Shown: positions 3,541 through 43,266 of the stretch, in pieces
Position numbering within the stretch: the stretch's first letter is position 1
How the letters are laid out: each line of letters starts with the position of its first letter
Virus record (IMG/VR): IMGVR_UViG_3300036829_000060
Coordinates: 1 to 44,318 of that record
Reading direction: 5' to 3' (one strand)
Origin: a virus
Length of the DNA: 44,318 nucleotides
Notes under the pieces: generated by a model
What the model was told of the DNA's origin: nothing
Database searches by the model: none
What the model saw: only the letters and a program-made list of their open reading frames with translations
Position numbers and translations under genes: made by a program

Positions 3541-5011
3541 CGGCGTATTCCGCACGCTAGCGCAATCAGCGTTCGCGGAGACAGCGCCACAACTAAACGA
3601 GGCATACTTCGCGCCCCGCACCGGAATTCAGCTACAGACACAGGTCGCAACCTACGGGCTGATGTACCGTGTGCAGCCGCACCTGTTCACTGCAATCGAC
3701 AAGATAGCCAACCTGATCGCGAAACTCACTGTCGGAGTTTATGATACAGCACCAGAAAGCGGAGACGTGCTGGATCGCCGGGGACCGTACGCCCAACTCA
3801 TGCGCAACCCGTGCTCCACACTGCCGAGATTCAAGTTCTACCACTGGATTTCGACCACATACGAAACATACGGCGAGGCATACCTCGTCAAGAACCGGGT
3901 GCCGACCAGCGACGGTTCCAGGGGTAGGGTAATGGGCTTCGTGCCAATGCATCCCGTCAATACCTACATTCACCGTGACGACAACGGGGTGCTGCAATAC
4001 GGTTTTACCGGCATGCCAGATATGTGGTTCCCCGAGTCGGAGATCGTACCGTTCCGCCGTTACAATCCCGACAACACCATGCGTGGTTTGTCCCGTATGG
4101 AACCACTGAGACAGACTCTCATGAACGAAGATTCGGCACGCAAAGCTGCAAAGTCGTTGTACGACAACATGCTTCGCCCAAGCTACGTGCTGTCAACCCC
4201 AAAGGTGTTGGGGGAGGCGGGATTTAAGCGGTTAGAGGCGGCTGTGCAGTCTGTTGGCGGTGTCGAGGGTGCGGGTGGCGTAATGCTGCTGGAGGATGAT
4301 GTGACCGCCACCCGTATGCAGCTCGACGCAGAAGAGATGCAGTACATCGAGACCCGAAAGCTAAATCGCAGTGAGTGTTTCGAGGTCTACGATCTGAATC
4401 CCGCTGCGGCACAGATCAATGACAACACCACGCAGACCAGCTACGAGCCGATGACCAAAGACGTGTACAAGGCCAGCATCGACCACCGGCTCAAAGACAT
4501 CGAATCCACATTCGACTTCTACGTCGGCGCAGAATTCAACGGACCCAAGGAATTTCGTTTCGACGTTAACAACCAGCTACGTGCCGACATTGAGGTACTG
4601 GCACCGGCCATCGTGCAGCTTGTGCAATCGTTTGTACTCAAGCCGTCCGAAGGTCGCACATGGCTTGGCCTTTCGGATGCTGGCAAGGACGCTGACCAAC
4701 TGTTCGGCAACCAGGCGATGAAACCTCTTGAGCTAGTGCTGAATCCGCCAGAACCGCCCACAACGCCTGGGGCGCTTGCACTTCCGAGCGGACACCCAAG
4801 CAACAACGACAACCCGAACCCGCAGGGTGATTTGCCGAAACGCGTTCCGGCACTTACGGATAAGGGTAAGTGGTATAAGAATCAGATCTTTGCCGGTTTA
4901 GGCCGTGGCAAAGCTTGGGACGAGGTTGCGCACCAGTACATGGAACGAAATCCCAGTGACAGGCAAGACATTCAGGTTGCTTGCCTGCATATTTTGATGG
5001 AGGCGAAGTAA
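3527..5011 (+). CDS. portal protein
   Basis: 494 residues from ATG 3527 (CAGGAGA about 7 nt upstream; the open frame runs further up to 3413 but that part lies inside the preceding gene). Sequence pattern matches HK97-type (SPP1/HK97-like) portal proteins: an N-terminal segment with TAIDKIANLIAKL, a YGEAYLVKNR segment, a DIWHR-like region (PDNTMRGLSRMEPLRQTL), and a C-terminal Pro-rich tail. The portal forms the dodecameric ring through which TerL packs DNA and to which connectors bind. Gene order terL-portal-protease-capsid supports the call. Confidence 0.9.
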   Translation: MLMSSGVFRTLAQSAFAETAPQLNEAYFAPRTGIQLQTQVATYGLMYRVQPHLFTAIDKIANLIAKLTVGVYDTAPESGDVLDRRGPYAQLMRNPCSTLPRFKFYHWISTTYETYGEAYLVKNRVPTSDGSRGRVMGFVPMHPVNTYIHRDDNGVLQYGFTGMPDMWFPESEIVPFRRYNPDNTMRGLSRMEPLRQTLMNEDSARKAAKSLYDNMLRPSYVLSTPKVLGEAGFKRLEAAVQSVGGVEGAGGVMLLEDDVTATRMQLDAEEMQYIETRKLNRSECFEVYDLNPAAAQINDNTTQTSYEPMTKDVYKASIDHRLKDIESTFDFYVGAEFNGPKEFRFDVNNQLRADIEVLAPAIVQLVQSFVLKPSEGRTWLGLSDAGKDADQLFGNQAMKPLELVLNPPEPPTTPGALALPSGHPSNNDNPNPQGDLPKRVPALTDKGKWYKNQIFAGLGRGKAWDEVAHQYMERNPSDRQDIQVACLHILMEAK

Positions 5012-31024: not shown

Positions 31025-31062
31025 CTACGGTAGTTGACATTCTGTATATACACGATTAGAGT
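31025..31062 (+). promoter_or_regulatory. promoter of the first early operon
   Basis: The -35 is TTGACA at 31034-31039 and the -10 is TAGAGT at 31057-31062, separated by 17 nt: the best sigma-70/SigA-type promoter in the window. The 9-mer CTACGGTAG (31025-31033) touches the -35 on its upstream side. Confidence 0.75.
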
Positions 31063-31076: not shown

Positions 31077-31463
31077 CCGCTAGCCCACTCGGAGCCAGCG
31101 GCGCACGATTCGCCGGAATTCACCCGGCAGCATGGCAATCACCCGGTCGACGGGGCATCTCCACTACGTCGAACCACCTCGGGGCGCAGGACGACCGACG
31201 GATGTATAGCGAGTCAGGCTGAAGAGTCAGACGGAATTCTCCAAAAACCTAAGCGCTGCTAGGGGACACAACCCAGCACGCCCAATCGCACAACAAAGCT
31301 CGTCGAACCCGTCCTGAACGGTGAGGCCAACCCGTCCGTGAACGGTGAGCAGCGGACCTGCGAAGGGGTCTCCTTCAATCGAAACCCGTTGCCGCAAGGT
31401 AAGCGGGTCTACCGGCTTTGGCATGCCGGTACTGAAGAGAATGCCAAACAGATTGGAGACAAA
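31077..31463 (+). other. long early-operon leader without a convincing gene
   Basis: About 390 nt between the promoter and the first early start codon. It holds two copies of CGTCC(G)TGAACGGTGAG (near 31312 and 31334) and a hairpin TACCGGC/GCCGGTA (31410-31431), then the shared leader AAACAGATTGGAGACAAA at 31446-31463. Frames here lack good starts. The length and structure suggest leader-mediated control. Confidence 0.55.
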
Positions 31464-31688
31464 ATGAAAGTAACCAACACCATCACACAGCTGGTTGTCA
31501 CCCTGTTCAACAAGTCGCAGCGCTTTGACTTCGGCAACGTTGATGAGGCAGTAAGCGAGATCCACGCGGTAGCCAAACGGCACGGTTACTCGTGCCTGGT
31601 CGATTACATCGGCGACGATCCGCAACTGAGCTGGACTTTGGTTCGCATGTCTGACAATCACACAGTCGGGCGTGCCTTTATCCGCTGA
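31464..31688 (+). CDS. hypothetical early protein
   Basis: 74 residues from ATG 31464, fixed by the shared leader GATTGGAGACAAA. Pattern: VTLFNKSQRFDFGNVDEAVS, a helix EIHAVAKRHGY, then a beta-rich end (LVDYIGDDPQLSWTLVRMSD). The fold may be a small alpha-beta. Its UGA stop is the first three bases of the intergenic element at 31686. Not recognised. Confidence 0.75.
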   Translation: MKVTNTITQLVVTLFNKSQRFDFGNVDEAVSEIHAVAKRHGYSCLVDYIGDDPQLSWTLVRMSDNHTVGRAFIR

Positions 31689-31758
31689 GTAGTACTAGGC
31701 CAGCCTCGAAAGAGGCTGTGCCAGTGGACAACTCAGTCCAAACAGATTGGAGACAAAC
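31686..31758 (+). repeat. structured intergenic element, copy A
   Basis: Order: TGAGTAGTACT (starting with the upstream stop codon), a hairpin CAGCCTC-GAAA-GAGGCTG, a small hairpin TGGAC-AACTCA-GTCCA, then leader AAACAGATTGGAGACAAAC and ATG 31759. CTGAGT at the front can alternatively pair with ACTCAG in the second loop. Confidence 0.85.
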
Positions 31759-31941
31759 ATGGTAACAAGCAACATCCTCGGCTGGAACGTAACCCACACC
31801 ATCGAGGTTGTGTTCGTACCCAATAACCACGGCTACCCGTACGCAGCCGAATGTTCATGCGCTTGGCGGTCAAACACCTACGCTTCTCGGCACGCCGCAG
31901 AGCAGATGGGCGCTGATCACCTGGCCACCGTTGCTAACTGA
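31759..31941 (+). CDS. hypothetical early protein
   Basis: 60 residues from ATG 31759, after the leader; an in-frame TTG inside the leader (giving METN) is rejected because it overlaps the ribosome binding site. Pattern: HTIEVVFVPNNHGYPYAAEC, SCAWRSNTYASRHAAEQMGA; two Cys and several His could bind metal. It resembles a small double-stranded-RNA-binding-like or zinc fold only vaguely. The stop is inside the next intergenic element. Confidence 0.75.
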   Translation: MVTSNILGWNVTHTIEVVFVPNNHGYPYAAECSCAWRSNTYASRHAAEQMGADHLATVAN

Positions 31942-32010
31942 GTAGTACTTGGCCAGCCTCGAAAGAGGCTGTGCCAGTGGACAACTCAGTCCAAACAGAT
32001 TGGAGACAAA
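31939..32010 (+). repeat. structured intergenic element, copy B
   Basis: Almost identical to copy A (same hairpin CAGCCTC-GAAA-GAGGCTG and same TGGAC-AACTCA-GTCCA), beginning with the stop of the upstream gene and ending in AGATTGGAGACAAA before ATG 32011. Confidence 0.85.
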
Positions 32011-33579
32011 ATGAAATCACAAGAAATGGCACAGGATATTGTTGCTTCGCTTCGCGCCCGTAACCCGATCATCTGGGTTGTGACCCGCGAGGAAGGGCGT
32101 GTTGAGCCTTACCTGTTCGAGGCTGGTGTGTCTGCGAACTACGAACCCGTATTCTGGGATGTAGCAGCAGGATTCACCGGCATCGACGGCAAACCGCTTA
32201 GCACGTTCGACAACGGCGCTGACAGTCCCGACGCTGCTCTTGACGCAATCAACGACGCGACCAGCCGGAAGCTGTGGGTACTGCGGGATTTACCTGTGTG
32301 GCTTGCACCGCCGGTTGGTCTGCTCACACTACGCAGGTTGCGTAATCTTGCGCGTTCACTGCCCGGTCGCGACAGCGACAAGGCACAAGCCGTCATCGTG
32401 ATCTCACCTACAAAAGACGTGCCTGCTGAATTGGCGGACCACACAACGGTTTACGAGTGGCCGCTGCCTGACCGCGAGGAAATCGCCGCGCTGCTCGATG
32501 TTGCAATCGAGTCGCTACCCGACGATATGCAAGCGACTGCCCTTAACGGCAGCCGTGACGCGGCAATCGATGCAGCAGTCGGACTCTCGGGTGAAGAGGC
32601 GCAAGCAACCTTTGCCCGGTCGCTGGTACAAACCAAGCGTATCGACCCCGCTGCTGTGGCCGCTGAGAAGCGGCGCGTCGTCGCCAAGACTGGCGGCGCC
32701 GAATGGTTCGACCCAATCGAGGGCGGGCTGGAAGCTGTTGGTGGGCTGGACAATCTGAAATCGTGGCTCGTGTCGCGTGCCAGTGCGTACAGTCCAGCTG
32801 CCCGCGAGTACGGTCTGCCTGCTCCCAAGGGTGCCATTCTGGTTGGCGTTCCTGGTTGCGGTAAGTCGCTTGCCTGCAAAGCGATTGGCACAGAGTGGAA
32901 CATTCCGGTAATACGGATCGACCTCTCCGCGCTCAAAGGCAAATATGTGGGTGAGTCAGAGGCCAACCTGCGCAACACCTTTAGCATGATCGAAGCTATC
33001 GGGCGTTGCGTCGTGTGGGTAGACGAAATCGAGAAAGCTCTGGCTGGCTCGGTCGACGGTTCGGCTGATGGCGGCGTGAGCGCGGACGCTCTCGGGTTCC
33101 TGCTCTCATGGATGCAGGAACGCCAGGGCGAGGCGTTTGTTATCGCGACGGCGAACAACGCTGAGAAGCTACCGCCGGAATTGTTGCGCAAGGGCCGCTT
33201 TGACGAGGTTTGGTGGGTTGACCTGCCCAACCGTGTCGAGCGTGAATCCATCATTGCGGCAGCGCTGCGCTCCAATAAGCGCAACGCCAGCAAGATTGAT
33301 CTTGCTGCTGTCGCTGACGCTACCGACACGTTCACAGGTGCCGAGCTTGCTGCTCTGGTACCCGATGCAATGTTCGCAGCGTTCAATGATGGTGCCCGCG
33401 AGGTCACAACGGACGATCTGCTGCTAGCAGCTAAAGTTGTTGTGCCGCTTGCGAAAACGGCGAGTGAGAAGATCACTCGTTTACGTGAGTTCTGGTTGGG
33501 TCGCGCACGGCCTGCTACAGCGGCCATTGCCGAAGCTGTCCGCAAGGGCAGCAAGGCAAGGCAGCTGGACCTCAACTGA
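32011..33579 (+). CDS. AAA+ ATPase, Ycf46-like
   Basis: 522 residues. The N-terminal 200 residues start with NPIIWVVTREEGRVEPYLFE, the pattern of Ycf46-type proteins. The AAA+ core has Walker A GVPGCGKS (about 279-286), Walker B VVWVDEIEK (about 334-342), sensor-1 ATANN (about 379-383) and the GRF motif RKGRFDEVWW (about 393-402) with the likely arginine finger. Such ATPases form hexamers that remodel or unfold partners. It is the largest early protein, framed by structured elements on both sides; the two following genes are likely partners. Confidence 0.88.
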   Translation: MKSQEMAQDIVASLRARNPIIWVVTREEGRVEPYLFEAGVSANYEPVFWDVAAGFTGIDGKPLSTFDNGADSPDAALDAINDATSRKLWVLRDLPVWLAPPVGLLTLRRLRNLARSLPGRDSDKAQAVIVISPTKDVPAELADHTTVYEWPLPDREEIAALLDVAIESLPDDMQATALNGSRDAAIDAAVGLSGEEAQATFARSLVQTKRIDPAAVAAEKRRVVAKTGGAEWFDPIEGGLEAVGGLDNLKSWLVSRASAYSPAAREYGLPAPKGAILVGVPGCGKSLACKAIGTEWNIPVIRIDLSALKGKYVGESEANLRNTFSMIEAIGRCVVWVDEIEKALAGSVDGSADGGVSADALGFLLSWMQERQGEAFVIATANNAEKLPPELLRKGRFDEVWWVDLPNRVERESIIAAALRSNKRNASKIDLAAVADATDTFTGAELAALVPDAMFAAFNDGAREVTTDDLLLAAKVVVPLAKTASEKITRLREFWLGRARPATAAIAEAVRKGSKARQLDLN

Positions 33580-33654
33580 GTAGTACTCTGGCGCATAGGC
33601 TTTCGGGTCTATGCGCTGGCTGGACAACTCAGTCCACAACGATTGGAGACAAAC
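33577..33654 (+). repeat. structured intergenic element, copy C
   Basis: Starts with the ATPase stop codon in TGAGTAGTACT. Its hairpin is GCGCATAGGC/GTCTATGCGC with loop TTTCGG (33591-33616), different in sequence from copies A and B but in the same place. TGGAC-AACTCA-GTCCA and CGATTGGAGACAAAC follow, before ATG 33655. Confidence 0.85.
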
Positions 33655-34383
33655 ATGACTGAATTTCGTACGCTACAGCCTGGCCTGCTGGTCAACATGA
33701 ACACCAGCGTTAAGGGCAACGTGACCTATCAAGTCAACGACCGCGACGTGAGATACGTTGACCGGTCCGAGATCACCGATATTCACACCCGCAAGCTCGT
33801 CGCAGACATCGATGAGCAGGAACGGGCCATCAAGGAACGCACCAAGATCCGCGGATTGATCCTGTCGGTATGCGCCAAGTCTGAGTTCGCGCTGCTCTGC
33901 CCAAACGACAGAGAGGCCGAGCTGCGCGAGGCCATCGCCGAAGGGCGAACGCTCGCAGAGAAATTTAACGCCAACGCCTCGACAACCCACATAGAGTTTC
34001 GGGTCATCTGCGGTCGCATCGCACAAGACGACGTAGAGACTGTGCGAGCCATCACGAGCGAGATTCGCTCACTGATGGAAGACATGCAACGCGGTGTTAA
34101 AGCGTTGGATGTCAAAGTGATTCGCGCTGCCGCTAACCAAGCAACCGAAGTCGGCAAAATGCTTTCACCGGAAGCAAAAGGTCGCGTAGCGGTCGCCATC
34201 AAGGCAGCACGTGACACAGCGCGCAAGATCGCTAAGGCCGGTGAGGTTGCCGGGCAAGAGATCGACCGTGGCGCACTGCGCAAGATCGGCAAAGCGCGAA
34301 CGTCGTTCTTGGACATCAACACCGAGGTTGCCGAACTGGCGGAACCGAAAGCCCAGGGACGCAACATCGACCTATCTGCCTGA
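33655..34383 (+). CDS. hypothetical coiled-coil protein, probable ATPase partner
   Basis: 242 residues from ATG 33655. A short beta-rich front (LQPGLLVNMNTSVKGNVTYQ, VRYVDRSEITDIHT) is followed by long charged helices (DIDEQERAIKERTKIRGLIL; VKVIRAAANQATEVGKML; ARDTARKIAKAGEVAGQEID). It lies between the AAA+ ATPase and the 34456 gene with the same element on each side, suggesting shared control and a joint job. Family not recognised. Confidence 0.75.
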   Translation: MTEFRTLQPGLLVNMNTSVKGNVTYQVNDRDVRYVDRSEITDIHTRKLVADIDEQERAIKERTKIRGLILSVCAKSEFALLCPNDREAELREAIAEGRTLAEKFNANASTTHIEFRVICGRIAQDDVETVRAITSEIRSLMEDMQRGVKALDVKVIRAAANQATEVGKMLSPEAKGRVAVAIKAARDTARKIAKAGEVAGQEIDRGALRKIGKARTSFLDINTEVAELAEPKAQGRNIDLSA

Positions 34384-34455
34384 GTAGTATTCCCCCACTC
34401 TCCAACGGAGAGTGCGGGTTTGGACAACTCAGTCCACAACCGATTGGAGACAATA
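34381..34455 (+). repeat. structured intergenic element, copy D
   Basis: TGAGTAGTATT with the upstream stop, hairpin CACTCTCC-AAC-GGAGAGTG (34396-34414) with CCC/GGG outside, TGGAC-AACTCA-GTCCA, then CGATTGGAGACAAT and ATG 34456. The stem has no sequence similarity to copies A-C but the same position. Confidence 0.85.
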
Positions 34456-34794
34456 ATGGCATGCGACACAATGCTTTCGATGGGTCAGACGTTGACTCAG
34501 CGCAAAGATCAGGTACGCAAAGCAGCGGCCACCATCGACAAGCTGATAGCGCAGCGCAAAGCGGGCGTGAAAGTCGGTCCGCAGGGTGCCGTCACGTTTA
34601 CCGGCATCCCCGACGCTGACCGCTCTGGCATGACGGACGCTTGCGTCTACCGGATGTTGACGCGTAGCGGTTCTGCTGCTGCGAAGATGGCCATCATGCG
34701 GGCAGAGCAGCTGGCGGGCCGTAGCGTGAATCGTGCAGCCCTGACAGCGGGTGTGCATTCGCACGATGGCGGTAACACCTGGTCGGCGCACTGA
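34456..34794 (+). CDS. hypothetical protein of the ATPase module
   Basis: 112 residues from ATG 34456. Pattern: CDTMLSMGQTLTQRKDQVRK, VKVGPQGAVTFTGIPDADRS, TDACVYRMLTRSGSAAAKMA, and a His-rich end GVHSHDGGNTW. I recall similar proteins being common in phages, but I do not know a function. It contains Cys and His that might bind metal. Its stop starts the next intergenic element. Confidence 0.75.
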   Translation: MACDTMLSMGQTLTQRKDQVRKAAATIDKLIAQRKAGVKVGPQGAVTFTGIPDADRSGMTDACVYRMLTRSGSAAAKMAIMRAEQLAGRSVNRAALTAGVHSHDGGNTWSAH

Positions 34795-34869
34795 GTAGTA
34801 CTCTGGCGCACAGGCTTTCGGGTCTGTGCGCTGGCTGGACAACTCAGTCCACAACAAAGATTGGAGACA
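34792..34869 (+). repeat. structured intergenic element, copy E
   Basis: Same as copy C except that the hairpin is GCGCACAGGC/GTCTGTGCGC (34806-34831): the T-A pair of copy C has become C-G on both arms, a compensatory change. TGGAC-AACTCA-GTCCA and AGATTGGAGACAAT follow, before ATG 34870. Confidence 0.85.
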
Positions 34870-35058
34870 ATGATGGACCCAAACACTGCGCTAGCAGAAC
34901 TGCGCAAGTATGCGATGGGATCAAAAGAGGAGTGGGCCTTACTGTTTGAAGGTCTGGACTCGTGGCTGTTGCGCGGCGGATTCCTGCCCGACGACTGGGC
35001 GAAAGCCCAAGAGGCAGACAAGGCGGCGCTGCGAATAGCGTTGGGTCGCAAGCCATGA
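34870..35058 (+). CDS. hypothetical early protein
   Basis: 62 residues from ATG 34870 (a second ATG follows at 34873). Helical and Trp-rich: LAELRKYAMGSKEEWALLFE, LDSWLLRGGFLPDDWAKAQE. The stop overlaps the next ATG, so three more small genes are translated in series behind this one without intergenic elements. Not recognised. Confidence 0.7.
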   Translation: MMDPNTALAELRKYAMGSKEEWALLFEGLDSWLLRGGFLPDDWAKAQEADKAALRIALGRKP

Positions 35059-35261
35059 CTTTCACGCCATGTAGTCCACGGCACAAGTCATGCTCACCGG
35101 CTCACGCCGAGCTGGTATGGGATTACCGGCTGGAACGGTTACGGCAAAAGGTACAGCGGGAAGCCTTCACTGGCGATTACGAAGCTGACATCGAGCACTG
35201 GAAAGCCAAGGGCGGCAAGCTGATCAGCTTTCGCGACTGGCTCAAGGCGCACAAGTCATGA
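35055..35261 (+). CDS. hypothetical early protein
   Basis: 68 residues, ATGA overlaps at both ends. An N-terminal Cys/His-rich piece (TPCSPRHKSCSPAHAE) and a basic helical remainder (YRLERLRQKVQREAFTGDYE). The Cys/His content could bind zinc. Not recognised. Confidence 0.7.
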   Translation: MTFTPCSPRHKSCSPAHAELVWDYRLERLRQKVQREAFTGDYEADIEHWKAKGGKLISFRDWLKAHKS

Positions 35262-35410
35262 GCGGATATAACTGGTTTAAGCACGATGCAGTGTCAAACC
35301 TGTTGCTGCTACTCAAGATTGACCCTACCAAGGTCACACCGGAGCAGCGGCAACAGGCAGAACGTGTCATAGATTCCACCATGCGCTACGCACGTTCGAT
35401 GATGACATGA
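35258..35410 (+). CDS. 50-residue hypothetical protein
   Basis: ATGA overlaps with both neighbours. Pattern: YNWFKHDAVSNLLLLLKIDP, then TPEQRQQAERVIDSTMRYAR: helical. Support comes from the exact junctions and ordinary composition. Not recognised. Confidence 0.6.
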   Translation: MSGYNWFKHDAVSNLLLLLKIDPTKVTPEQRQQAERVIDSTMRYARSMMT

Positions 35411-35556
35411 TCGTCACCACGCCAATGTTCCTGACAGGAACAACGGAAGCCCTGCTACATCAAGCGATCCACCAAGTTGGTAACGAGAATAATGCCGAGG
35501 TGGGCGACGAGATAGTCGTGAACTTCATTGGGATGACCAAAGATTCAGACGGGTGA
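35407..35556 (+). CDS. 49-residue hypothetical protein
   Basis: ATGA overlap with the previous gene. Pattern: TTPMFLTGTTEALLHQAIHQ, then acidic EVGDEIVVNFIGMTKD. Last member of the overlapping group before the intergenic element at 35593. Not recognised. Confidence 0.6.
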   Translation: MIVTTPMFLTGTTEALLHQAIHQVGNENNAEVGDEIVVNFIGMTKDSDG

Positions 35557-35592
35557 CCGCTGGCACGCTGGGCAGTAACTTACAGAAAGGTT

Positions 35593-35667
35593 TGAGTGGT
35601 ACTCGTCCACCCTCGAAAGAGGGTGTGGCGCTGGACAACTCAGTCCACAACAGATTGGAGACAAAAA
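35593..35667 (+). repeat. structured intergenic element, copy F
   Basis: TGAGTGGTACT (here not the stop of any gene), hairpin CACCCTC-GAAA-GAGGGTG (35608-35625), TGGAC-AACTCA-GTCCA, CAGATTGGAGACAAA and ATG 35668. Compared with copies A and B a G-C pair in the stem has become C-G, a compensatory change. Confidence 0.85.
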
Positions 35668-36006
35668 ATGAACAAGTCAATGGTGATCGCAGCAGTAGCG
35701 GGCGGGCTCACAGCAATCGCGGTGAGCATGGCTCAGGATGCACACGCTGACGAGTCGTCTTACCTTAACGAGGTTTCCGCTCGTGGTGTGCCGATCACAT
35801 CAGCGACGCTGACGCTCGGACATCAGATCTGCTCCGACATATCGTATTACGGAGTCGACGGCATCGAGAAAGACGCGAGAGCTGCTGTCGTGGCGGGCGT
35901 TTCAGCCCATGACGCTGCGGTGCTGATCGTTGTGGCAGTGTACGAGCTGTGCCCGTCCAACCATGGCGCGCTGAACGCGTGGCTGTACCCGACAACGGAA
36001 GCGTGA
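35668..36006 (+). CDS. secreted DUF732-type protein
   Basis: 112 residues from ATG 35668. Signal peptide: MNKSMVIAAVAGGLTAIAVS and on, with cleavage after AHA (about residue 27). The mature part matches DUF732, a small helical domain with two Cys found mainly in secreted mycobacterial proteins: YLNEVSARGVPI, LGHQICSDI, GVSAHDAAVLIVVAVYELCP. Role unknown; as an exported early phage product it could act on the envelope, for example against superinfection. It supports a mycobacterial host. Confidence 0.85.
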   Translation: MNKSMVIAAVAGGLTAIAVSMAQDAHADESSYLNEVSARGVPITSATLTLGHQICSDISYYGVDGIEKDARAAVVAGVSAHDAAVLIVVAVYELCPSNHGALNAWLYPTTEA

Positions 36007-36010
36007 CGCT

Positions 36011-36133
36011 ATGAAGATTCGCACAGTTCGCGTACCTGATGACCTCTGGGCGCGCGTGAAAGCGAAAGCGAAACAGAACGACGAACAGGTGTCGACGGTG
36101 ATCCGTCGACTGTTGTTCGCGTACGTACGCTAG
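36011..36133 (+). CDS. 40-residue ribbon-helix-helix DNA-binding protein
   Basis: MKIRTVRVPDDLWARVKAKA, then QVSTVIRRLLFAYVR: a beta-strand with alternating exposed residues and two helices, the Arc/CopG type of dimeric DNA-binding fold in minimal length. It starts 4 nt after the DUF732 stop and ends just before a strong terminator. It is a natural candidate for binding one of the palindromic motifs of this genome, but no direct evidence links it to one. Confidence 0.75.
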   Translation: MKIRTVRVPDDLWARVKAKAKQNDEQVSTVIRRLLFAYVR

Positions 36134-36149
36134 GAGACACTTAAAAGAG

Positions 36150-36183
36150 CCTCGGCAGGATTCGTCCTGACCGAGGTTTTTTT
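36150..36183 (+). terminator. intrinsic terminator of the first early operon
   Basis: An 11-bp stem with one A bulge: CCTCGGCAGGA, loop TTCG, TCCTG-A-CCGAGG, followed by seven T. It ends the operon that starts at the 31034 promoter. Confidence 0.92.
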
Positions 36184-36342
36184 ATGTCCAAAATCGCTGG
36201 TCACATGCTTGCTTCGCTACCGTAGCGTCTGTAATACCTTGCGTATATACAACTTTCGGCTGTCAGCGTGTCGCATCCTTGACCTGTCACCAGGTGAGCG
36301 TACTGTCCAGCCAGACGACCAATCAAAGACTGGAGACAAACC
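36184..36342 (+). promoter_or_regulatory. control region of the second early operon
   Basis: Contains the 16-mer CTTCGCTACCGTAGCG (36212-36227, identical to 26248-26263) and a candidate promoter TTGACC (36279-36284), 16 nt, TACTGT (36301-36306). A short inverted repeat ACCTG/CAGGT lies within the spacer. The leader GACTGGAGACAAA (36328-36340) then precedes GTG 36343. TATATAC near 36244 is an alternative -10. Confidence 0.5.
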
Positions 36343-36582
36343 GTGGACGACGACATGACACACATACTCATGCGCTTCGCACGCTGCACCGAAATCATCA
36401 CAGCCGAGCACCATCCCGACGAGCACGGCATGCCATACGTTCTGCACATCGACGGCGGCAAGCACCACGGCACCGTAATCCATGTCATGACAGAGCAATC
36501 CGTCACCCGCCTGTTCAACGAGGTTGTGGCAGCACGCAAGCTGGGCGACGACCACGAACACCCCTACTTGAGCGCCGTCTGA
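36343..36582 (+). CDS. hypothetical early protein
   Basis: 79 residues from GTG 36343, set by the leader variant GACTGGAGACAAA. Rich in His and acidic residues: ITAEHHPDEHGMPYVLHIDG, GKHHGTVIHVMTEQSVTRLF. The beta-hairpin-helix pattern suggests a small alpha-beta fold. The UGA stop is part of the palindrome at 36580. Not recognised. Confidence 0.7.
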   Translation: MDDDMTHILMRFARCTEIITAEHHPDEHGMPYVLHIDGGKHHGTVIHVMTEQSVTRLFNEVVAARKLGDDHEHPYLSAV

Positions 36583-36595
36583 TCCAAACGGATCA
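36580..36595. repeat. 16-bp palindrome TGATCCNNNNGGATCA, copy 4
   Basis: Centre AAAC. Its first three bases are the stop codon of the 36343 gene, and GTTCGATTGGAGACAAAC follows directly, so the palindrome takes the place occupied by the structured element elsewhere. Confidence 0.8.
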
Positions 36596-36599
36596 GTTC

Positions 36600-36613
36600 G
36601 ATTGGAGACAAAC
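36600..36613 (+). repeat. shared leader GATTGGAGACAAAC without the hairpin element
   Basis: A full copy of the ribosome-binding leader before ATG 36614, joined to the 16-bp palindrome instead of the hairpin element. It shows the leader is a unit of its own. Confidence 0.8.
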
Positions 36614-36952
36614 ATGTATCCCGAAGAGGTTAATCGAGATCCGGCACGTATCCATGGTGCCGACGAAATGTGGACTAGCGCACTCAATCGCCTGGACAAA
36701 ATCGTCGCATACATCAGGACGATGGAACCCGACATCTATACGGCGGCAGGTGAAAACCATGACAGCTCAGTGCTTTACGACTGGCTCAAGGGCTACATCA
36801 TGATTGCTGAAACTCGCGGCGGGAGGGTGGCACGTCAGACAACAACACTGATGTGTGCTGCCGCGCTCACAAAGCTGGTGCGAGCGCCACGCACCGACGA
36901 CCCACTGGCGCAACTAGATTGGAAGGAACCAGAAGATGACGACCAGCACTGA
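36614..36952 (+). CDS. hypothetical early protein
   Basis: 112 residues from ATG 36614. Helical: ARIHGADEMWTSALNRLDKI, YDWLKGYIMIAETRGGRVAR, MCAAALTKLV, and an acidic end (PEDDDQH). It overlaps the next gene by 17 nt. Not recognised. Confidence 0.7.
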   Translation: MYPEEVNRDPARIHGADEMWTSALNRLDKIVAYIRTMEPDIYTAAGENHDSSVLYDWLKGYIMIAETRGGRVARQTTTLMCAAALTKLVRAPRTDDPLAQLDWKEPEDDDQH

Positions 36953-38634: not shown

Positions 38635-38686
38635 GGCGGCGTGCTGCTGTATGGCTTTGTCTCCAATCCGGTGGCACGCCGCCTTT
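38635..38686 (+). terminator. intrinsic terminator with a loop antisense to the shared leader
   Basis: Perfect 10-bp arms GGCGGCGTGC (38635-38644) and GCACGCCGCC (38674-38683), extendable by five further pairs including wobbles, followed by TTT. The 19-nt loop (38650-38668) contains CTTTGTCTCCAATC, the exact reverse complement of GATTGGAGACAAAG. The first 13 nt of that sequence occur in front of at least six genes between 31.4 and 36.6 kb. Confidence 0.88.
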
Positions 38687-38762
38687 AACTGCCCGAGTCG
38701 CAGCGGGTGATAGTACGAAATGACTGCGGCACTACAACACACAATAAGGAAGGTGAAATGCC
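38687..38762 (+). promoter_or_regulatory. leader before the SSB-like gene, possible weak promoter
   Basis: About 75 nt separate the terminator from ATG 38763. GATAGTAC near 38708 could be a -10, with TTTAAC (38684-38689) too far up to be a good -35. AAGGAAGGTG (38746-38755) is a strong ribosome binding site. A promoter must exist here if the terminator is efficient. Confidence 0.3.
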
Positions 38763-43046: not shown

Positions 43047-43266
43047 AACACCACGCCCCTTGCGTACAGCGTTCGCCACGCGCGCACGACCCGACATGCG
43101 CACCTATCCAGCCGGGAATTTCGGCAACAAGCCGAGCCTCGACTTCGATTGGGACGCAGCGCTTTACCGGCATGCGCTGACAATGCGGGAGCTGGGCTAC
43201 GAGCTGAGTAAGGAACAACGGAAGAGGATAGACGACCATGAGACTGCTGCACTTTCGGACAGCTAA
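43033..43266 (+). CDS. hypothetical protein
   Basis: 77 residues from ATG 43033. Basic N-terminus (ARKTPRPLRTAFATRARPDM) and helical C-terminus (YRHALTMRELGYELSKEQRK). It overlaps the next gene by 29 nt. Not recognised. Confidence 0.62.
   Translation: MPARKTPRPLRTAFATRARPDMRTYPAGNFGNKPSLDFDWDAALYRHALTMRELGYELSKEQRKRIDDHETAALSDS

Follow-up and report, generated by a model that had tools for sequence, protein, structure and literature searches.

A pseudoknotted RNA element that alternates with hammerhead ribozymes at the gene junctions of a phage operon and may itself be self-cleaving

Six copies of a compact RNA element lie between the genes of one operon in a 44,318-base virus record (IMG/VR IMGVR_UViG_3300036829_000060; here the window), and we use the name X for these six and for their counterparts in relatives, which together make 15 elements in four phages. 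X is real, structured and conserved in its pairing, and its link to self-cleaving ribozymes is one of replacement: where some of the four phages carry X, others have a hammerhead ribozyme before the orthologous gene. We consider X to be an undescribed cis-acting RNA that performs the function of a hammerhead at gene junctions, most likely by cleaving itself, and from the sequences we put the probability of this interpretation at roughly 45%. The structure of X, its covariation, its overlap with stop codons, its position and its exchange with hammerheads are computational results.

Six pseudoknots at the junctions of one operon

The six elements start at 31686, 31939, 33577, 34381, 34792 and 35593, the coordinates at which an initial annotation of the window had placed a set of structured intergenic elements.

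31686-31740, + strand: element X1 (pseudoknot), 86.2 bits, covariance model
31939-31993, + strand: element X2, 86.0 bits, covariance model
33577-33636, + strand: element X3, longer central hairpin with UUCG loop, 38.8 bits, model built without X3
34381-34436, + strand: element X4, 66.8 bits, covariance model
34792-34851, + strand: element X5, longer central hairpin with UUCG loop, 38.9 bits, model built without X5
35593-35647, + strand: element X6, 80.3 bits, covariance model

The constant 3′ hairpin of X is the 16-mer TGGACAACTCAGTCCA, which occurs exactly six times in the window; with up to three mismatches allowed there were still 6 matches compared to 0.32 expected, and six matches were reached in 0 of 100 shuffles. 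Some copies within this genome are near-identical (X1/X2, 99%; X3/X5, 97%). On the 3′ side of every window copy stands TTGGAGACAA and then a start codon, and GATTGGAGACAA or a near copy forms the ribosome-binding site 3′ of each X, again ahead of the start codon. The TGA at the first base of X terminates the upstream gene in five of the six window copies, and, as read from the sequences, that of the sixth (X6) is the in-frame stop used by a longer relative in contig L013. All six copies lack a U-tail, as the initial annotation had said and the sequences confirm on reading, and we rejected an identity of X as an intrinsic terminator because no U-tract follows the hairpin.

Strand a at the 5′ end of X (TGAGT) is complementary to the AACTCA loop of the constant 3′ hairpin, giving a pseudoknot. 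The strands follow in the order a, hairpin, b, a′, b′, with a/a′ and b/b′ as the two pseudoknotted helices. Strand a (UGAGU), which contains the stop codon, is followed by a junction of usually six bases and by the variable hairpin; then come one or two bases, b (UGGAC), a′ (ACUCA), b′ (GUCCA), the ribosome-binding site and the start codon, with one base joining b to a′ and none between a′ and b′. The first junction has the consensus RGYACU, from which two of the 15 elements clearly depart (at 7763 in contig L046 and at 7595 in contig L035, both from related phages). The central hairpin has 8-15 bp and is capped by a GNRA, UUCG or three-base loop; because hairpin length and loop type vary in this way, the identity of the loop is unlikely to matter. 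The ribosome-binding site reads as unpaired within X.

Pairing is conserved through sequence change

Both compensatory changes quoted in the initial annotation are present in the window, and its proposal of a functional RNA is supported, since covariation, the test it had named, also holds in three related phages; the pseudoknot, the stop-codon overlap and the link to ribozymes had gone unnoticed. Pairs were counted on 12 of the 15 elements, drawn from four phages, with X3, X5 and L035 7595, whose hairpins were not alignable, excluded. Pairing was found in 97.5% of the 240 cells, and all six unpaired cells fall in the central hairpin, consistent with L046 7763 being out of register; when partners were shifted by 1-3 columns as a control, pairing was only 29-38%. 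Changes on both sides occur at 9 of 20 pairs compared to a shuffled mean of 3.0 (0 of 500 shuffles had as many), and the covariation score was 0.293 compared to 0.137 for shuffled alignments, with 0 of 500 reaching 0.293. The a/a′ helix varies at a single pair, which can be G-C, G-U or A-U (TGAAT/ATTCA in L046 and L035; TGAGT/ATTCA, with the G-U pair, in L046), and the b/b′ helix varies at four pairs, three of them on both sides. Single-strand folding cannot display pseudoknots and yields the a/a′ or the b/b′ version of X; by this measure seven of the eight elements tested scored lower than any of 200 shuffles (z -4.4 to -5.8), and the eighth (z -3.2) was matched by 1 of 200.

X occurs in four related phages

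X was found in three further IMG/VR viral contigs (L007/L035, L013/L046 and L034/L071), and the phages that carry it are related, with ATPases 65-89% identical. The covariance model returned 14 copies at E 4e-9 or better, all in the four phage records, and missed L035 7595, which is counted as X from a pattern search. X3 and X5, scored from outside the model, reached 39 bits compared to 24.7 bits for the best among 98 other loci; 24 of the 28 model rows over those 98 loci fall on the 16-mer or the pattern by which the loci had been chosen. Searching with the exact 16-mer gave 26 loci, two of them with X. A relaxed pattern combined with the ribosome-binding site gave 68 stretches, of which 66 were re-read and one contained X (L071, from the L034 phage), the remaining two being L007 and L013. 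The core pattern returned three contigs, all from phages already known to carry X, and blastn against isolated phages gave no convincing X. One stretch in GTDB genomes, on a Chloroflexi contig, matched the pattern with neither the hairpin nor the b/b′ stem and was judged a chance match. Over 13 more distant relatives the best covariance-model E value was 0.04, and distant relatives (ATPase 54-63% identical) carried neither X nor a hammerhead at the junctions read, in 10 of 13 loci. Rfam at gathering thresholds over the whole window identified the hammerhead only, as did a search to E 5 over 31300-36700 (4227 families), which found no family for the six window elements. X, matched neither in Rfam nor in the literature that we found, is the new part of this operon.

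X and hammerheads exchange before orthologous genes

The window hammerhead, which the initial annotation overlooked, precedes the first gene of the operon.

31377-31449, + strand: type II hammerhead ribozyme in the leader, before the first operon gene, Rfam RF02276, 39.2 bits (gathering 37)

This Hammerhead_II sequence has a full core, and its GUC motif predicts a cut after C31409; AACAGATTGGAGACAAAATG follows both this ribozyme and X2. In L034, six hammerheads stand before successive genes. A script found the core strands and stems I, II and III intact in 8 of 8 hammerheads of L034 and L035, and the ninth, that of the window, rests on its Rfam match and was not printed by the script. Two of the nine pass the Rfam gathering threshold, the window hammerhead and the one in the secreted-gene slot of L035 (45.1 bits), and two further L034/L035 hammerheads score about 30 bits; the six of L034 fall below gathering, the leader hammerhead of L035 was missed at E 1, and these are assigned from core pattern and stems. 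A core-like match at 43047 in the L046 record was dropped, as by eye it had no proper stem III.

Four orthologous genes differ among the four phages in whether X or a hammerhead precedes them. The ATPase gene follows X in the window and L046 and a hammerhead in L035 and L034; the P0002 and P0003 genes follow X in the window, L046 and L035 and a hammerhead in L034 only; and the secreted-protein gene follows X in the window, L046 and L034 and a hammerhead in L035 only. Orthology of the ATPase, P0002 and P0003 genes comes from one gene comparison, and the secreted genes were compared separately. A census of TTGGAGAC ribosome-binding sites in the operon of the four phages gave 25 copies, with X upstream of 15, a hammerhead upstream of 9, another structure upstream of 1 (the L046 leader) and both X and a hammerhead upstream of none.

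The two RNAs are also packed alike against the preceding gene. Internal hammerheads adjoin TAA, TAG or TGA stop codons, and X supplies its own TGA except at L035 7595, where a TAG stands just ahead. Because hammerheads abut any stop codon and L035 7595 uses the TAG ahead of it, the stop overlap looks like packing common to X and hammerheads rather than like a reading of UGA.

Hammerheads that occur in clusters, or in the intergenic regions of phages, are already known, as described in the available part of PMC3088659, and the junction arrangement is therefore of a known kind. Separately, an unrelated 55-kb phage contig (L123) has three type II hammerheads at Rfam level between 10760 and 12143 on the minus strand, at three successive gene junctions and each directly after a stop codon.

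Genes and leader of the operon

The remaining features of the window operon are as follows.

31034-31062, + strand: sigma-70-like operon promoter, TTGACA-17-TAGAGT, a consensus match only (1 found, 2.3 expected in shuffles)
31368-31380, + strand: 13-mer GTCTCCTTCAATC, complementary to the operon ribosome-binding site and common to the four leaders (word comparison, folding)
31464-31688, + strand: first small gene, 74 aa, reading frame ending at the TGA of X1
32011-33579, + strand: AAA ATPase gene, ending at the TGA of X3, Pfam PF00004, E 4e-29
33655-34383, + strand: gene of 242 aa, ending at the TGA of X4, no Pfam match
34456-34794, + strand: gene of 112 aa, ending at the TGA of X5, no Pfam match
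35668-36006, + strand: DUF732 secreted protein gene, Pfam PF05305, E 5e-8
36150-36183, + strand: terminator-like hairpin with T-run closing the operon, seen by eye and not listed by the terminator scan

The operon ATPase resembles that of cluster O mycobacteriophages, and because of this resemblance and the DUF732 gene the host is probably of mycobacterial type. A small gene at 35407-35595 stops at a TGA where its relative in L013 has a Trp codon; this early TGA reflects either recent truncation of the gene or an error in the sequence. Shortly after the operon, at 36580-36595, a simple hairpin (TGATCC-AAAC-GGATCA) starts at a stop codon and is followed by the same ribosome-binding site (to 36611); it is neither X nor a hammerhead.

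GTCTCCTTCAATC recurs in the relatives (L034 4096-4108, L035 4623-4635, L046 4554-4566), directly 5′ of the ribozyme slot in four otherwise unlike leaders, and it and its near-complement GATTGGAGACAA are the only words of at least 9 bases common to all four. Folding pairs GTCTCCTTCAATC with GATTGGAGACAA strongly in three of the four leaders (6.6-7.7 expected pairs) and partly in the window (2.5). In such models the leader ribozyme can be enclosed by a helix in which the first ribosome-binding site is hidden, and the ribozyme's cut could either free that site or release an RNA able to base-pair with each ribosome-binding site in the operon. GTCTCCTTCAATC may thus keep the first gene shut off until ribozyme cleavage, or may act in trans. 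In L046 the leader slot (about 4567-4625) holds a different structure of two hairpins with complementary loops, GUUUC and GAAAC; it has no well-fitting Rfam family and is a third candidate for the elements that fill this kind of slot.

What X may do

The known activity of the hammerhead is to cut its own strand. Because X replaces this self-cutting RNA before orthologous genes with the same packing, it likely yields separate messages. Among the roles raised in the initial annotation, the replacement favours processing; translation control and protein binding are not equally supported. Self-cleavage is the favoured route because published searches of sites where hammerhead and twister are interchangeable yielded new ribozymes, namely pistol, hatchet and twister-sister (PMC10085705 and PMC8216279, in the parts available).

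X would accordingly mark or make a cut between genes of a polycistronic phage mRNA. Its folding would follow departure of the ribosome from the stop codon upstream: during termination the ribosome would sit over strand a, or over a hammerhead's first core strand, and cutting may therefore wait for a clear stop codon. Self-cleavage in one of the two X junctions would leave an upstream message ending in a hairpin and a downstream message starting with one, an outcome that would parallel that of a hammerhead with its stems III and I. Cleavage by X, its site and its timing are what we infer here from sequence.

Several points weigh against this interpretation. Only four related phages carry X, and its conservation may in part reflect recent descent; the shuffle test of covariation ignores kinship among these phages. 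The shared slots could arise by exchange of ribosome-binding-site modules of any kind via the common CACAACGATTGGAGACAA. The plain hairpin at 36580-36595 fills a similar place, and X is absent from all four leaders. The unpaired junctions are not strictly conserved (two of 15 depart from RGYACU), in contrast to the 10 highly conserved bases of pistol (PMC4604425, available part), and cutting by X is a predicted activity only.

An unlikely but serious alternative is that X is cut by a nuclease or blocks a 5′-to-3′ exonuclease of the RNase J type, in which case X would lie at or close to the start of the downstream messages; hammerheads would reach the same end by leaving a hairpin-bearing 5′ end. 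The shared slot and a compact pseudoknot just before the ribosome-binding site suit such a role. A central hairpin of 8-15 bp is, however, short for RNase III, and Rfam gives only the hammerhead in the window operon even at E 5. Plant-virus xrRNA_D elements, some of them intergenic, are delimited by the first base of stem P1 and the final base of a pseudoknot, but they have conserved bases before the 3′ pseudoknot strand, where X has no base between a′ and b′ (PMC6299227, available part).

We give appreciably less credence to X as a structural insulator or translation-coupling element that makes no cut, shielding the ribosome-binding site from upstream sequence or coupling UGA termination to downstream restart. 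The stop codon does lie inside a pairing strand in five of six window copies, and a plain hairpin occupies a similar place at 36580. However, internal hammerheads that occupy these slots come after TAA, TAG or TGA, and at L035 7595 a TAG precedes X, so a UGA inside the element is not required; moreover, the ribosome-binding site reads as unpaired within X.

That X is a DNA-level repeat, such as a protein-binding or recombination site, is very improbable: it is repeated and partly palindromic with some near-identical copies in one genome, but its pairing is kept through sequence change, G-U pairs included, and it stands in one orientation between genes of one operon. We regard as slightly more doubtful still a known ribozyme in rearranged order, for instance the non-circularly permuted hammerheads that exist with two pseudoknots (PMC10085705, available part), since CUGANGA is absent from all 15 elements and from their near flanks, and GAAA, found in 10 of 15, is mostly a replaceable hairpin loop (UUCG or others elsewhere). 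Least credible of all is a UGA readthrough signal fusing neighbouring proteins: in the window the gaps are in frame at five of six elements, probably by chance, and the frame is open through all six (31939-35668), but only 6 of 14 elements overall are in frame, and L046 has no in-frame gap among 5, with a stop closing 4 of the 5.

Returning to self-cleavage, a wider proposal has a somewhat smaller chance than the interpretation itself. X would be a new natural class of self-cleaving ribozyme, a long transcript would be cut up, mostly into messages of one gene each, by ribozymes of at least two unrelated kinds placed directly after stop codons, and the cut in the leader would also release an RNA carrying an antisense copy of the ribosome-binding site.

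Comparison with known systems

The type II hammerhead (RF02276) shares with X the same junctions, the same packing from stop codon to ribosome-binding site, and a compact form with a pseudoknot and two hairpins. X differs in having no CUGANGA strand, no conserved core GAAA strand and another pairing order, and its cleavage is a prediction.

Pistol has, like X, a short stem with a loop that base-pairs to a distant strand, and no base between the loop strand and the closing strand, and it too was found through association with other ribozymes. The distant strand is 5′ in X and 3′ in pistol, and X has no third stem; according to the available part of PMC4604425, the pistol loop pairs with the junction between two further stems, whereas X has one further hairpin, no Rfam match and no set of 10 conserved bases.

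The xrRNA_D elements are likewise built from P1 and P2 with a pseudoknot that bases 3′ of P1 close, and some are intergenic (PMC6299227, available part). Their viruses and sequences are unrelated to those of X, for which exonuclease resistance is only hypothetical.

HDV-like and theta ribozymes are pseudoknotted and present in phages, as X is. In HDV-like RNAs, with their nested double pseudoknot, the 5′ strand of the second stem precedes the inner hairpin. In X this strand comes after the inner hairpin, and X has no Rfam match.

The SAS/ESAS of cluster K mycobacteriophages resemble X in being conserved repeats at start sites, with inverted repeats upstream, in front of many genes; SAS is GGGATAGGAGCCC with 17-bp imperfect inverted repeats (PMC3203893, available part), whereas X combines GATTGGAGACAA with a pseudoknot. 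Elsewhere in the window, at 38640-38692 on the minus strand, another TTGGAGACAA lies between the arms of an inverted repeat, GGCGGCGTG/CACGCCGCC.

About ten classes of self-cleaving ribozyme are recognised, nine well studied and one proposed (PMC10085705, available part), and on present sequences there is a fair chance that X is a new one. At about 55 bases it is a ready ribozyme candidate, and the swapping of a known ribozyme and an unknown RNA before the same genes in close relatives amounts to a natural experiment on gene-junction ribozymes: if X cuts, it is a new ribozyme, and if it does not, its action will reveal which property of the hammerhead the phage needs.

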